Shown here piece by piece: positions 1 through 34,964 of a stretch of 34,964 nucleotides of DNA. A model generated the notes under the pieces. The model did not search any database and was not told the origin of the DNA. It saw only the letters and a list, made by a program, of their open reading frames with translations. Positions within the stretch are counted from its first letter, which is position 1; each line of letters starts with the position of its first letter. This DNA is from Prevotella sp. (GTDB lineage Bacteria > Bacteroidota > Bacteroidia > Bacteroidales > Bacteroidaceae). A program made the position numbers and the translations under genes. The DNA lies in contig JAFVGN010000010.1 of assembly GCA_017474925.1 (NCBI GenBank), positions 1 to 34,964 of the forward strand, given 5' to 3'.

Positions 1-14
1 CTATATGCTGTTAG

Positions 15-29
15 CTTACATAATGTAAG
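15..29. promoter_or_regulatory. Operator-like palindrome next to a leftward promoter
   Basis: CTTACAT at 15-21 and ATGTAAG at 23-29 form a perfect 7-base inverted repeat around a single base. It lies a few bases downstream, in the leftward sense, of the TACCTTTG box at 43-36. It therefore covers the expected start of transcription, where a dimeric repressor could bind. The gene it would control lies outside the window. The palindrome is seen directly; its role is inferred. Confidence 0.3.
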
Positions 30-35
30 TTGCTG

Positions 36-43
36 CAAAGGTA
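36..43 (-). promoter_or_regulatory. Leftward Bacteroidetes -7 box
   Basis: On the minus strand this reads TACCTTTG, a perfect match to the Bacteroidetes -7 consensus TAnnTTTG. The nearest TTTG upstream (70-67) is 23 bases away, slightly further than the usual 19-21, so the -33 element is uncertain. It would drive a gene to the left of the window. Confidence 0.5.
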
Positions 44-140
44 GTCATTTCAAAACCTCCGAGTGACAAATGGGGCAGAAAACAAAGTGTGCATCAGTGA
101 TTCGAGAAATTGTTAACGGATTTTAGTGGACACTAGTGGA

Positions 141-318
141 ATAAAATCAGGCAAGGACCAAGAGGAGGATCGCCTTCACAGAGCTACATGTCGCTAAACT
201 GATACCCCAGGGAACTGGAGTAATCGAGGGCAAGTTGGCGCACACGCTGAAGCTTGCTTAAAAGCCAGGCAAACAGTCAATCCCCTAAGAGCTATTGGAT
301 AAGACCCAGCCTGAACCC
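141..318 (-). ncRNA. Putative structured small RNA, possibly 6S-like
   Basis: No convincing protein is encoded here, but the minus strand has a full promoter (TTTG at 354-351, 20 bases, TACCTTTG at 330-323). The expected transcript starts near 318. Its 5' arm TCAGGC (314-309) pairs with GCCTGA (152-147), which is followed directly by a T-run (146-143), so the ends form a closing stem and a stop signal. Inside, GGGA/ACUG near the 5' side can pair with CAGUUCCC in the middle, giving a long rod-like fold. The length of about 178 nucleotides and the closed rod shape suit a 6S RNA. I did not recognise the primary sequence, so a stable RNA is moderately likely and the 6S identity is a guess. Confidence 0.45.
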
Positions 319-31427: not shown

Positions 31428-31453
31428 AACGGTTACATTGTTGCTTCAGTTTG

Positions 31454-31484
31454 CAAAAGTACGAAAAAACGAGTGAAATGCAAA
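31454..31484 (-). promoter_or_regulatory. Promoter of the lipoprotein gene
   Basis: On the minus strand TTTG (31484-31481), 19 bases, TACTTTTG (31461-31454), 27 bases before the ATG. The -33 box lies within the loop of the helicase terminator, so the stop signal of one unit and the start of the next share DNA. Confidence 0.55.
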
Positions 31485-31500
31485 AAGAAAACTCGTTTTT
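31464..31500 (-). terminator. Intrinsic terminator of the helicase gene
   Basis: AAAAACGAGT and ACTCGTTTTT (31465-31474, 31491-31500) form a perfect ten-pair stem around a 16-base loop. On the minus strand it ends in a six-T run (31469-31464). It lies 53 bases past the helicase stop codon. Confidence 0.55.
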
Positions 31501-31552
31501 CTTTTTATTTCCGAGAATATATGGCGAGAGCCATCTCTATTGATACGTTGCT

Positions 31553-33874
31553 TCAGACCTTCACGGTTTCATCCGGATGGTCACTTTGCACTGGCGAAGC
31601 AATCAACAGTCTTTCCTTCCTCTGCTGCCACTTCGTGGCTGCTGTCATATGACCGTTGGCAACACTGTTTCTCCCTGGCTTTTTGTTCTTAGGTTTTTCA
31701 GGTTCCCTTTCCGACTCGATACGACGCTCTGCAAACAGGTGCTGCCAGTCACGCTCGTCGGTGGGCAGGCCGAAGGTCTCTCCCATCTTTACATGGTCTA
31801 TGACCAAGAGCTTGTTGTCACTGTCCTCTATACGCTCACCCTTGGTGAAGTCCGTAGTCACTCTCATACGTGTTTCCACCATGCTCAGGTATTCGCTCAA
31901 CAGTTGTGTGGGGTATGCCAACTGCACAAACTGCACTTCCGGCAAAGGGAAGTCTACACTCATGCCATGCACGTCGACGAGTACCTTCAGTTTTCCAGAA
32001 CAGAAATCCTCCATCGGGAATCTCGGCTTCGACGGACTATCGCCATATAACACCTTTGCCGCCACGCCATGCCGTGAGTAGTATTCCGCAATGCCCCGTG
32101 CATGCAGATCGTTGAGTGCATAGACGATGCCCCGCCTGCCATCGGCATAATCTTTATACGCCTTAAACAGGCTGGCAATACACTCCAGGCTTGTCAACCT
32201 GTTGTATAGCTCCCACGGCACATAGTCTTCAGGATGCTTCCTGGGCTTGAGTATGCCAAGGAGCGCACCAGTAAGTCCTGTATGGGGAACGGACACGTAT
32301 TCCACATCTTTCAGCAGTCCTTGGCCAATATAGTCTTTCAGGCTCTGTGACGGCTCTACCCTATCGAAAAGTCGGAATTCTGGTGCGGATATGCTGTCAC
32401 ACGGTGCCAACGAAAGACCTACGGTCTTTGCCTTGGGCCAGACATGCAAGGTATTCCAGCAGGCTCTTGGCTCTGCACTGTTGCCATCCCAGAAAACTAT
32501 CAGCGATGGTGTGTAGAACAGGACCAAGTCAATATGGTACAGGAACTGTTCATGGCATACGACCAGTTGTCTGTCTTTCATCCTGGCGTAATAATTGTTC
32601 GGACACCCGACATCCAACAATCCGTTTTTCCTGAACTCCTGTTCTACCAAGCCTGTCAGACTATCCCGTTTTACCACGACAAGCGTTTTCGGTGGCTCCA
32701 TGCGCATACGTTCCTTGTTCCATACCTGTTCCTTGCACATCAGACTGATGACAAACTGGGCCTTCTCGACAAACGGTGGAACCTGCACCATCACCTTCCG
32801 ATTCGTCCTTAGTGTTTCCTTAAGCTTCCCGGCCATCTCTTCACAGAACTCCATTGCCGGTGAGTTGAAATCCTTAGCCACCAGCGCATATTGCAGTTCA
32901 CTGTTTTCATAGGCAACAGATGACTGCAGGTTTCTTTCTTGATTCTTTCCTCCTACAACCGACTTGATGCGGAACATCTGTTCGTTGACGAGCCACTTCT
33001 CCCCACCATTTCCACTTAGACGGTTATTGGTTGGCTCACGGTCATTGTTCAATACTCTTCCCTTGCCGCTGATTCTCCCGAGGAAAGTGCCCTGCCAGTT
33101 GCGGTCACTTGTCGGAAGGCTGAACATCAGGTAGAGTCCCACCTGGTCAAGGATGACTACCTCGCTTTTGCCTTTCGCCACTCTCATACCGCGGCCCACC
33201 TGTTGCAGGTATTTCGAAAGCGACAGGGTGGGACGGGCCAGCTGTATGAACTCCACTTCCGGAACATCGAAGCCCTCAGAGAAAATATCCACATTCACCA
33301 GGATGTCAATTCCCCTGTCTTCCCGTCCATCTGATCCGTATGATTGGTGATTCACGTTGTTCCTGTATTCCTCAACAATCCGTTGTCTCTCTTTGGCCGG
33401 GGTCTTGCTGTCGATCACGGCACAACGCAGTCCACGCTCTGAGTAGTACTCAGCGATATGCCTTGCATGGTCTCGGTTGATGGCATAGACAATGCCCTTC
33501 TTCCCGTTAGCGAACTCCTCGTACGACCTGTACAGGTGTTCTATGCTCTCCTCCGTGTCCAGCACCAGCGCGGCCTGCTTCGTCTGGTAGTCACCGTCGG
33601 CATCGCGCTTGTTCAGGCTGGCCACCTTCCTTACGGCAATGCTGTCCGAGCGTACTGACACGTAGTCAAGATCGCTCAGCCAGCCTTTCTGTATGAACTC
33701 ACGGATGCTCCACGACTGTAGCAGCGTGTCAAAGAGGTCTGTAAACGGTGCCCCATTCAGTCGGCATGGTGTTGCCGTCAGTCCTAGGAACCGTGCTTTC
33801 GGCCACCGTTCCCACAGCATCCTATAGGTCTCAGCTACCGCATGGTGCGCTTTCCGTGCTATAGGCAGGTACAT
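31553..33874 (-). CDS. Helicase 3' fragment: end of module 1 plus degenerate module 2
   Basis: Open frame of 773 codons; its first ATG lies in the insertion. Residues 10-270 finish active module 1: TATPC (33-37), the C-terminal helicase domain with EGFDVPEVEF, and motif VI QVGRGMR (225-231). Residues 355-720 repeat the module with lost motifs: PPFVEKA replaces PTGTGKT, FWDGN replaces IIDEA, LAPC replaces TATPC and MVETRMR replaces QVGRGMR. Fold-level matches remain throughout, such as RGIVYALNDLHARGIAEYYS against KGIVYAINRDHARHIAEYYS. The last 50 residues are basic. On its own this piece cannot hydrolyse ATP. Confidence 0.6.
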   Translation of the reverse strand: MYLPIARKAHHAVAETYRMLWERWPKARFLGLTATPCRLNGAPFTDLFDTLLQSWSIREFIQKGWLSDLDYVSVRSDSIAVRKVASLNKRDADGDYQTKQAALVLDTEESIEHLYRSYEEFANGKKGIVYAINRDHARHIAEYYSERGLRCAVIDSKTPAKERQRIVEEYRNNVNHQSYGSDGREDRGIDILVNVDIFSEGFDVPEVEFIQLARPTLSLSKYLQQVGRGMRVAKGKSEVVILDQVGLYLMFSLPTSDRNWQGTFLGRISGKGRVLNNDREPTNNRLSGNGGEKWLVNEQMFRIKSVVGGKNQERNLQSSVAYENSELQYALVAKDFNSPAMEFCEEMAGKLKETLRTNRKVMVQVPPFVEKAQFVISLMCKEQVWNKERMRMEPPKTLVVVKRDSLTGLVEQEFRKNGLLDVGCPNNYYARMKDRQLVVCHEQFLYHIDLVLFYTPSLIVFWDGNSAEPRACWNTLHVWPKAKTVGLSLAPCDSISAPEFRLFDRVEPSQSLKDYIGQGLLKDVEYVSVPHTGLTGALLGILKPRKHPEDYVPWELYNRLTSLECIASLFKAYKDYADGRRGIVYALNDLHARGIAEYYSRHGVAAKVLYGDSPSKPRFPMEDFCSGKLKVLVDVHGMSVDFPLPEVQFVQLAYPTQLLSEYLSMVETRMRVTTDFTKGERIEDSDNKLLVIDHVKMGETFGLPTDERDWQHLFAERRIESEREPEKPKNKKPGRNSVANGHMTAATKWQQRKERLLIASPVQSDHPDETVKV

Positions 33875-33894
33875 TCGTCACGATGATACCGCGC
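33851..33894 (-). other. 44-base insertion resembling a D-2-hydroxyacid dehydrogenase fragment
   Basis: These bases interrupt the DEAH codons of the helicase gene. GCGC occurs at both edges (33847-33850 and 33891-33894). In a frame offset from the helicase, the minus strand reads RGIIVTNVPAYSTES, which I recognise as the conserved segment after the NAD fold of D-2-hydroxyacid (glycerate-type) dehydrogenases. No such gene is in the window. Best explained as a short copied patch joined at GCGC microhomology; it shifts the frame by two. Confidence 0.7.
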
Positions 33895-34377
33895 CTCGTC
33901 AATGATGATCAATGAGAAATCCGTGTGTAATTCATGGTCCTTCGTGCCCAGAACATCATCCGTTGTTCTGATTCTCCGTGTCAGCGTCTGTATGCTTGCC
34001 ACCTGCACCTGTTTTGTCTCGTCAACCGTTTTTCCGCTGACTATCAACCCATGTTCTAAGCCGAACCTATCCAGCGTCTGTGAAATCTGTTCTATCAGCT
34101 CAATCCTGTGCGCCACAACCAGCACCGATTGCTTACAGCGATTATCGTCACTCGGCCAAACAAGCAAGCTTGATGGCTCTCGTTGCTCCGATAATTCTTC
34201 ACTCTTCACTCTGCACTCTTCACTTCTGATGACTTCCGCCATCAAGTACGTCTTCCCCGTACCTGTCGGCATCTGCACCATTACGCTCTGTTGTCGTGAA
34301 TTTGCAATTCCTGACCAGGCCTGATGCAGCCGCTCAAGCATCTCTAACTGATAATCCCTCAAAACTTGACTCATCAT
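33859..34377 (-). CDS. Helicase 5' fragment: motif I domain
   Basis: Open frame of 172 codons: an N-terminal RDYQLEMLERLHQAW Q-motif-like region, Walker A MPTGTGKTYL (residues 36-45), motif Ia VLVVAHRIELIEQI, and motif II up to DEA (160-162). Ten off-frame residues and a stop caused by the insertion follow. Between motifs I and Ia it has about 30 extra residues, partly coded by a tandem repeat (SEECRVKSEELSE). This fragment could fold but lacks the second RecA domain. Confidence 0.6.
   Translation of the reverse strand: MMSQVLRDYQLEMLERLHQAWSGIANSRQQSVMVQMPTGTGKTYLMAEVIRSEECRVKSEELSEQREPSSLLVWPSDDNRCKQSVLVVAHRIELIEQISQTLDRFGLEHGLIVSGKTVDETKQVQVASIQTLTRRIRTTDDVLGTKDHELHTDFSLIIIDEARYHRDECTCL
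34191..34227. repeat. Short imperfect tandem repeat within the helicase gene
   Basis: The plus strand shows TTCACTCTTCACTCTGCACT-type units of 7-9 bases repeated about four times, read in frame as SEECRVKSEEL on the minus strand. This sequence type occurs as junk-like repeats in many Bacteroidetes genomes. Here it sits in frame inside a conserved domain. Confidence 0.6.
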
Positions 34378-34388
34378 GAGTTGTTATT

Positions 34389-34422
34389 AAAAGAAATTAG
34401 AATAATGAGAATAATTTCTTTT
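34389..34422. other. A+T-rich hairpin between the helicase gene and the repeat cluster
   Basis: AAAAGAAATTA (34389-34399) and TAATTTCTTTT (34412-34422) pair perfectly over 11 bases around a 12-base loop. It lies just upstream of the helicase start. No promoter boxes are found here. It may be a two-way terminator remnant or the edge of an inserted element. Confidence 0.35.
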
Positions 34423-34434
34423 TTACAAAAAAGC

Positions 34435-34850
34435 CATCGCGTCGCCTAATAAAAAAACCATCGCGTCGTCCCGCGATACCAAAACACCACAAAAGGTTGT
34501 CGGCTTCTGCAACCTTTTGTTTTTCCCTCGCCTGAGAAGAGGGGATACGGGGAGAGGTGGACCCCCTTCAAGGGTGAAGGGGACTGGGGATGTTCGGAAA
34601 AAGGTTATCGCTTCCCAACGCGCAGCCGTCAAAGACTTCATCGCGTCGTCCCGCGATACCATTTAGGAAAGGTTATCGCTTCCCAACGCGCAGCCCTATA
34701 AAAGAAGCATCGCGTCGTCCCGCGATACCAAAACACCACAAAAGGTTGTCGGCTTCTGCAACCTTTTGTTTTTCCCCTCGCCTGAGGAGAGGGGATACGG
34801 GGAGAGGTGGAGCCCCTTTAGGAAAAGGGGACGGGGGATTTCGAAAAAAA
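34435..34850. repeat. Nested palindromic intergenic repeat cluster
   Basis: Two long copies (34459 to about 34600, and 34708 to about 34850) share a unit beginning ATCGCG-TCGTCC-CGCGAT, a perfect 6-pair hairpin. A terminator-like hairpin follows (AAAAGGTTG...CAACCTTTT, 34491-34518 and 34740-34767), then a G-rich part. A third hairpin unit lies at 34639-34660 and a truncated one at 34435-34446. A second unit (GGTTATCGCTTCCCAACGCG) occurs twice between them (about 34603 and 34671). No transposase is present and the short frames here are not genes. It accounts for most of the 482-base gap between the helicase gene and the partial gene. Confidence 0.8.
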
Positions 34851-34859
34851 CTTTTGTTT

Positions 34860-34964
34860 TTATAGAACCTCAATGTTCCTTCGTTTCAACTCCTCGACGT
34901 ACCACTCCCAGAAATCACCAAGGTGACCATAGTATTTGTTCTCATCGTCAAACATGTCATCCCA
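34860..34964 (-). CDS. C-terminal end of an unidentified protein (partial)
   Basis: The minus strand is open from the window edge to a TAA at 34862-34860. It encodes the last 34 residues of a protein, acidic and rich in aromatic residues at first (DDMFDDENKYYG), then an amphipathic helix (EWYVEELKRRNIEVL). The codon pattern is credible and the frame runs off the edge, so it is likely real. I do not recognise the family. Confidence 0.5.
   Translation of the reverse strand, partial: WDDMFDDENKYYGHLGDFWEWYVEELKRRNIEVL

Follow-up and report, generated by a model that had tools for sequence, protein, structure and literature searches.

A 44-base insertion matching a D-2-hydroxyacid dehydrogenase gene interrupts the DEAH box of a helicase gene in a Prevotella assembly

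The interrupted helicase gene

The stretch of DNA that we analyzed, called the window here, spans 34,964 nucleotides of a Prevotella sp. contig (GenBank assembly GCA_017474925.1, contig JAFVGN010000010.1). On its minus strand lies a helicase gene whose reading frame is broken at positions 33851 to 33894, within the DEAH motif. The break leaves two overlapping frames. The N-terminal piece (33859-34377, minus strand; 172 amino acids) carries the ResIII and DEAD domains and ends in ...IIIDEA-RYHRDECTCL; past IIIDEA it reads through unrelated codons and then reaches a stop. The C-terminal piece (31553-33874, minus strand; 773 amino acids) carries the Helicase_C domain and starts with MYLPIARKA-HHAVAETYR, its ATG lying within the insert and the frame continuing as HHAVAETYR. 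The initial annotation had described a 44-base insert that hits the catalytic DEAH motif of a helicase and whose removal leaves a single frame, and we found each of these points to be correct. The helicase codons ahead of the insert (33895-34377, minus strand; the ResIII/DEAD part, from MPTGTGKT to IIIDE) and those past it (31553-33850, minus strand; AHHAVAETYR..., Helicase_C, and a long second part that metagenome-assembled genome [MAG] RUG13967 has as well) each make up a whole number of codons, with 0 internal stops.

For the family to which the disrupted helicase belongs, RadD (YejH) is the best match both among NCBIfam models and in the PDB. However, the cut-off of the RadD equivalog NF053632 (720 bits) was missed by the intact RUG13967 protein, which scored 149.1 bits, and by the two helicase pieces, which scored 103.9 and 40.8 bits. 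The solved RadD protein also differs in length, with 586 residues versus 927 in the intact RUG13967 relative. Judged by these comparisons, the disrupted gene is a RadD-like superfamily II helicase gene and not RadD. By eye, the second half of the gene (31553-32800, minus strand) resembles a worn second helicase part (LVDVHGMSVDFPLPEVQFVQLAYPTQLLSEYL). This half is found in RUG13967 too, and the other relatives listed align only to about residue 300 to 460.

To the RUG13967 orthologue, dN/dS is about 0.24 for the N-terminal piece, 0.12 for the first 300 codons of the C-terminal piece, and 0.30 for the rest. These ratios indicate that the helicase gene has been under constraint, and it shows no second lesion. 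Since the gene is open and conserved elsewhere and has no second lesion, the break is either recent or not real; by its sequence it looks recent. If the insert is real, the DEAH box and the connection between the two halves of the helicase are lost, and the protein is very probably inactive.

The site in related genomes

The closest relative of the helicase gene is that of RUG13967, which has an intact frame of 927 amino acids without the 44 bases. Across the empty site, RUG13967 and the window share 38 identical bases (15 before the insert and 23 after it). No recipient base is missing relative to RUG13967, so that the change is a net insertion only.

We then compared the site across the genus. 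A protein search for the helicase family in 299 congeneric genomes (E ≤1e-60) gave 50 matches in 40 genomes, the window's own included. A scan for internal stops is blind to breaks of this kind, the row for the window itself also reading "none," and therefore the motif was read directly in fetched loci. Of the 49 matches other than the window's own, 29 were read and the other 20 were left out of the motif count; nine further loci came from other searches. In every one of the 38 helicase loci examined outside this record, about 31 of them distinct, the DEAH motif was uninterrupted. Thirty-six met a text pattern, and two (L087 and L100) were read by eye; in L036 and L038 the sequence starts at the motif itself. 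Seven pairs of loci share an exact 200-base stretch and are each one gene present in two collections, among them RUG13967 (L034) with L072 of G221 and RGIG3782 (L035) with L085 of G087. The helicase relatives that carry names are MAGs assigned to Prevotellaceae and Prevotella sp., and titles such as Roe_deer_Abomasum make the rumen a likely origin. The initial reading of the 44 bases as an insertion agrees with this species-level comparison, in which the helicases of other species are without the insert (38/38 loci).

Among 398 congeneric genomes, the right junction itself (23 bases, at most 3 mismatches) was detected in two, with 0 mismatches in the window's own genome and with 3 in G199. The match in G199 lies 8 bases past the end of a 272-amino-acid frame that is not a helicase, and we took it for chance. 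Thus, the right junction was not found in the helicases of the 397 other congeneric genomes (one genome per species), and an insert common to a lineage was not seen among the congeneric genomes compared, again with one genome per species.

The source of the insertion

A BLAST search of the window's own genome with 244 bases around the site hit, besides the site, a single further place, which lies on contig C14 (E = 8.7e-17). In an ungapped comparison, positions 33848 to 33894 (minus strand) match C14:3590-3636 at 46 of 47 bases. A chance match was ruled out by this E value and by the single other place in the genome. The lone mismatch is at position 33888, where the window has T (minus strand) and C14:3596 has C; in the donor frame it falls on the third position of a Gly codon, and the difference is synonymous. 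The donor gene is an intact frame of 316 amino acids (C14:3333-4283) that encodes a D-2-hydroxyacid dehydrogenase and reads ...ERGIIVTNVPAYSTESVAQ.... Its protein scores above the cut-off for the domains 2-Hacid_dh (PF00389, 105.1 bits) and 2-Hacid_dh_C (PF02826, 187.4 bits). The proposal in the initial annotation that the inserted bases come from a D-2-hydroxyacid dehydrogenase gene is therefore borne out by a near-identical donor in the same genome. Its extent and identity needed correction: the match is 47 bases and not 44, because the junction bases are common to both loci, and it contains the one synonymous C/T difference. An IS1634-family transposase gene (L003:382-2055, on C14) precedes the donor dehydrogenase gene by about 1.3 kb; we saw no connection to the patch.

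The dehydrogenase gene was matched in 29 of 60 genomes, the window's own included. Among the fetched loci, the best stretch from another genome agrees with the donor at 41 of 47 bases, and another locus agrees with the patch at 41 of 47. The RUG13967 dehydrogenase gene is 72% identical overall and 38/47 over the matching stretch. At the position of the mismatch, T is present in some genes of other species. A donor from another species was rejected, the best foreign stretch among the fetched loci reaching just 41/47; since the fetched foreign stretches do not exceed this value, the source belongs to the window's own species. On this evidence, the source is the dehydrogenase gene of the same genome or a very near allele of it.

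The junctions

At the left junction (33891-33894), GCGC is common to recipient and donor over all 4 bases. At the right junction (33847-33850), the recipient again has GCGC, and 3 bases (GCG) are common, the donor reading GCGT. The initial annotation had noted that the insert is flanked by GCGC at either end. This is correct for the insert, but the donor match is full only at the left junction and extends to 3 bases at the right. The microhomology that it had claimed was thus found, with 4 and 3 bases at the two junctions. Because GCGC stands on both sides, several placements of the 44 bases are equivalent, and the position given for the insert (33851-33894, minus strand) is ambiguous to that extent. 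The same four bases of the recipient serve both junctions. This explains why nothing was lost and why GCGC flanks the insert on either side; it also means that neither microhomology is evidence independent of the other.

When the window and the donor locus were joined at random 20,000 times, 5.4% of the joins shared at least 3 bases and 1.8% at least 4. The combination of sharing at the two junctions points to microhomology, short of proof. We also compared wider stretches. The recipient sequence upstream resembles the donor patch (ATCATC..TGACGA) in 12 of 14 columns, with one gap and one mismatch, but 77 of 2000 shuffles reached as good a likeness. The corresponding likeness was equalled in 81/2000 shuffles at the left junction, in 1800/2000 at the right junction, and in 682/2000 for the reverse complement. 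Thus, no wider homology at the junctions was convincingly shown in these 2000-shuffle tests.

Relation to known events

Harms et al. reportedly described, in PNAS in 2016, short-patch double illegitimate recombination (SPDIR). In SPDIR, a donor patch replaces a stretch of the recipient, and in the strict sense the term denotes a short single strand annealing, independently of RecA, within a replication gap. The insertion described here is like SPDIR in that a short intragenomic segment lies at an unrelated locus with short microhomologies at both ends. The inserted bases have an ectopic source (46/47 to C14:3590-3636), both junctions carry microhomology (4 and 3 bases, not independent), and the RUG13967 orthologue keeps the ancestral empty site (38 identical bases). 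Replacement, as in strict SPDIR, was not seen, no recipient base being missing relative to RUG13967. The case also differs in that it comes from the assembly of an uncultured Bacteroidota species and is known from sequence alone. PMC7192050 uses the term SPDIR and calls short-patch events insignificant in natural populations, and PMC8116780 has Harms et al. 2016 among its references. The initial annotation had called such an insertion unusual in bacteria. This was fair, but the insertion is not without precedent, since its outcome has already been named SPDIR.

Quasipalindrome-type mutations, which arise by replicative template switching, are known from E. coli (PMC7202029) and yeast (PMC5677150). 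Such mutations are likewise templated by brief pairing elsewhere followed by a return to the original template. However, quasipalindrome switches use a nearby inverted repeat on the same molecule, whereas the template here lies on a different contig and is oriented like the reading strand. The insertion is best described as a microhomology-mediated templated insertion, an already known kind of event.

Proposed mechanism and alternatives

We consider it likely that, in a single recent mutation, 40 to 44 bases were copied via microhomology from the dehydrogenase gene of the cell itself, or of a very close strain, into the helicase gene at its DEAH codons. The donor, the recipient, the empty site in relatives, the 4- and 3-base microhomology, and the loss of frame are demonstrated, while the strand pairing, copying, and return steps are what we infer. 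While DNA was being synthesized, or a gap repaired, at the helicase gene, a single strand would pair through GCGC with the dehydrogenase sequence. Either the polymerase could switch to that sequence as its template, or a short single strand derived from the dehydrogenase gene could anneal in the gap. About 40 bases would be copied, and the strand would go back through GCG onto the same GCGC of the helicase gene. The outcome would be an insertion flanked on either side by a 4-base repeat, with nothing lost, and a helicase split into two overlapping frames and very probably inactive. The T/C difference, at the third base past the left microhomology, could be a synthesis error, later drift, or an allele of the donor. 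The sequence does not separate template switching from integration of an annealed fragment (SPDIR). Of the earlier suggestion of template switching or microhomology-mediated repair, a microhomology-templated insertion stands, and the sequence fits either route. RecJ is a suppressor of short-patch events. It is present with an open frame in the window's own genome; therefore, RecJ offers no sign of a mutator state, and a mutator by loss of RecJ was ruled out. A local duplication or hairpin as the source was also rejected, no fitting repeat being found and the upstream likeness to the donor patch being weak.

It is somewhat unlikely that the cell acquired the source from its surroundings, as DNA of a sister strain (extragenomic short-patch integration). 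Such DNA would fit the lone synonymous difference from the genome's own donor and the presence of T at that position in some genes of other species. However, one mutation accounts equally well for the T/C difference. Moreover, even the best stretch from elsewhere has 6 mismatches to the patch over 47 bases, so that just an unsampled strain of the same species could be the outside donor. We also think it unlikely that the insert is a chimeric library molecule or a low-coverage amplification chimera and that the cell keeps an intact helicase gene. The assembly (2,280,226 bases in 66 contigs, 63.65% complete) is presumably a MAG, the insert is known from one genome, and the gene is otherwise constrained and free of other damage; chimeras likewise use short microhomology. 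Yet an artefact needs two switches 44 bases apart, the second returning to the same four bases. Assemblers join no unrelated reads over 3 to 4 bases, and therefore the junctions must exist in the reads. One synonymous base also sets the insert apart from the assembled donor, and on the open reading frame map, judged by eye, the window's other main frames appear whole. No other short, near-identical, single-copy patch was present among the scored candidates in own-genome searches of the window (40 of 81, 40 of 104, and 40 of 60 candidates scored). In addition, contigs end 138 to 141 bases inside a common repeat, which would fit assembly with long words. One pair of contig ends shares 141 bases and five other pairs share 138, the end of an IS-like repeat; as a sign of the type of assembler, this overlap is suggestive only.

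It is very improbable that non-homologous end joining captured a short fragment where both strands had broken. Filled-in staggered ends can give a pure insertion with a 4-base repeat, and the structure of the insert is compatible with this. However, the bases at both junctions are common to the donor, and no Ku was found in any of the 35 genomes searched, of which 24 are near-complete and one is the window's own, incomplete genome. As a control for this search, there was a signal in Bacillus subtilis among 14 named control genomes. The lack of Ku in these 35 genomes makes end-joining capture unlikely. It is barely credible that the insert is a reversible or programmed element that toggles between the GCGC copies or splits the helicase into two cooperating proteins. 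GCGC does lie on either side, and an ATG in the insert opens the C-terminal frame, which overlaps the N-terminal one. Against such an element, the insert is absent from the relatives read, the break falls inside the catalytic motif, and the repeat is just 4 bases long, a weak substrate for the reversion between GCGC copies that the initial annotation had suggested. Only short inverted repeats (9 to 10 bases) are present in 33700-34000, and no Rfam family matches 33000-34964, a result by which an RNA element was rejected as well. The insertion is most probably a loss-of-function accident, and we found no support for a switch.

If reads confirm the microhomology-templated insertion, it would be a natural ectopic event in an uncultured bacterium for which the donor, the recipient, the empty site, and both junctions are identified, in a group with no Ku found in the genomes searched. 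Such cases let one ask how often short-patch events break or build genes outside the laboratory. A single event changes no principle; we regard this one as a clean natural example, from one genome, of moderate interest.

Dispersed repeats

The N-terminal part of the helicase gene also contains a dispersed repeat (34128-34227, minus strand; RSEECRVKSEELSEQREPSSLLVWPSDDNRC), which is in frame and lies apart from the 44-base insert. Parts of it match many places in the window's own genome and in the genus. One copy lies inside the GMP synthase gene guaA (L026:346-2073, minus strand, on contig C44 of the window's own genome), in frame and read from the other strand. Over 98 bases, the guaA copy and the helicase repeat are 87% identical. 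The guaA repeat directly precedes the VQFHPE motif; between the two aligned stretches, guaA has 46 residues, as against 7 in its best PDB relative (5tw7). We take this in-frame repeat of the helicase and guaA genes to resemble, in spirit, the Rickettsia palindromic elements. It may deserve more attention than the 44-base insert.

Two helicase loops, one between motifs I and Ia and one just before DEAH, carry in-frame, repeat-like stretches that differ by species when compared by eye (L034, L037, L039, L074, L095, L097, and L098). These stretches include HPQPLPKGGE, PNPSPKKGGE, a DDGRGKM tandem, SEECRVKSEE, PPPGGWGG, and a GNQGIRDS tandem. A literature search on in-frame repeats in Prevotella found nothing on point. 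It is doubtful that short ectopic patches are frequent in this Prevotella group and that the 44-base patch is a fresh, harmful product of the process by which the in-frame dispersed repeats reached the loops of this helicase family and of GMP synthase, with selection sparing only patches that are in frame and in loops.

Other repeats are intergenic. The block at 34564-34860 has near copies on C14, C15, and C34; it contains ATCGCGTCGTCCCGCGATACC and AAAAGGTTGTCGGCTTCTGCAACCTTTTG, both of which recur at 34430-34530. The repeat at 31445-31516 is found in at least 15 other places in the genome, with 79 to 91% identity. At the other end of the window (1-141), the contig starts 138 bases into a repeat common to the ends of C19, C31, and C41, which is probably the end of an insertion sequence.
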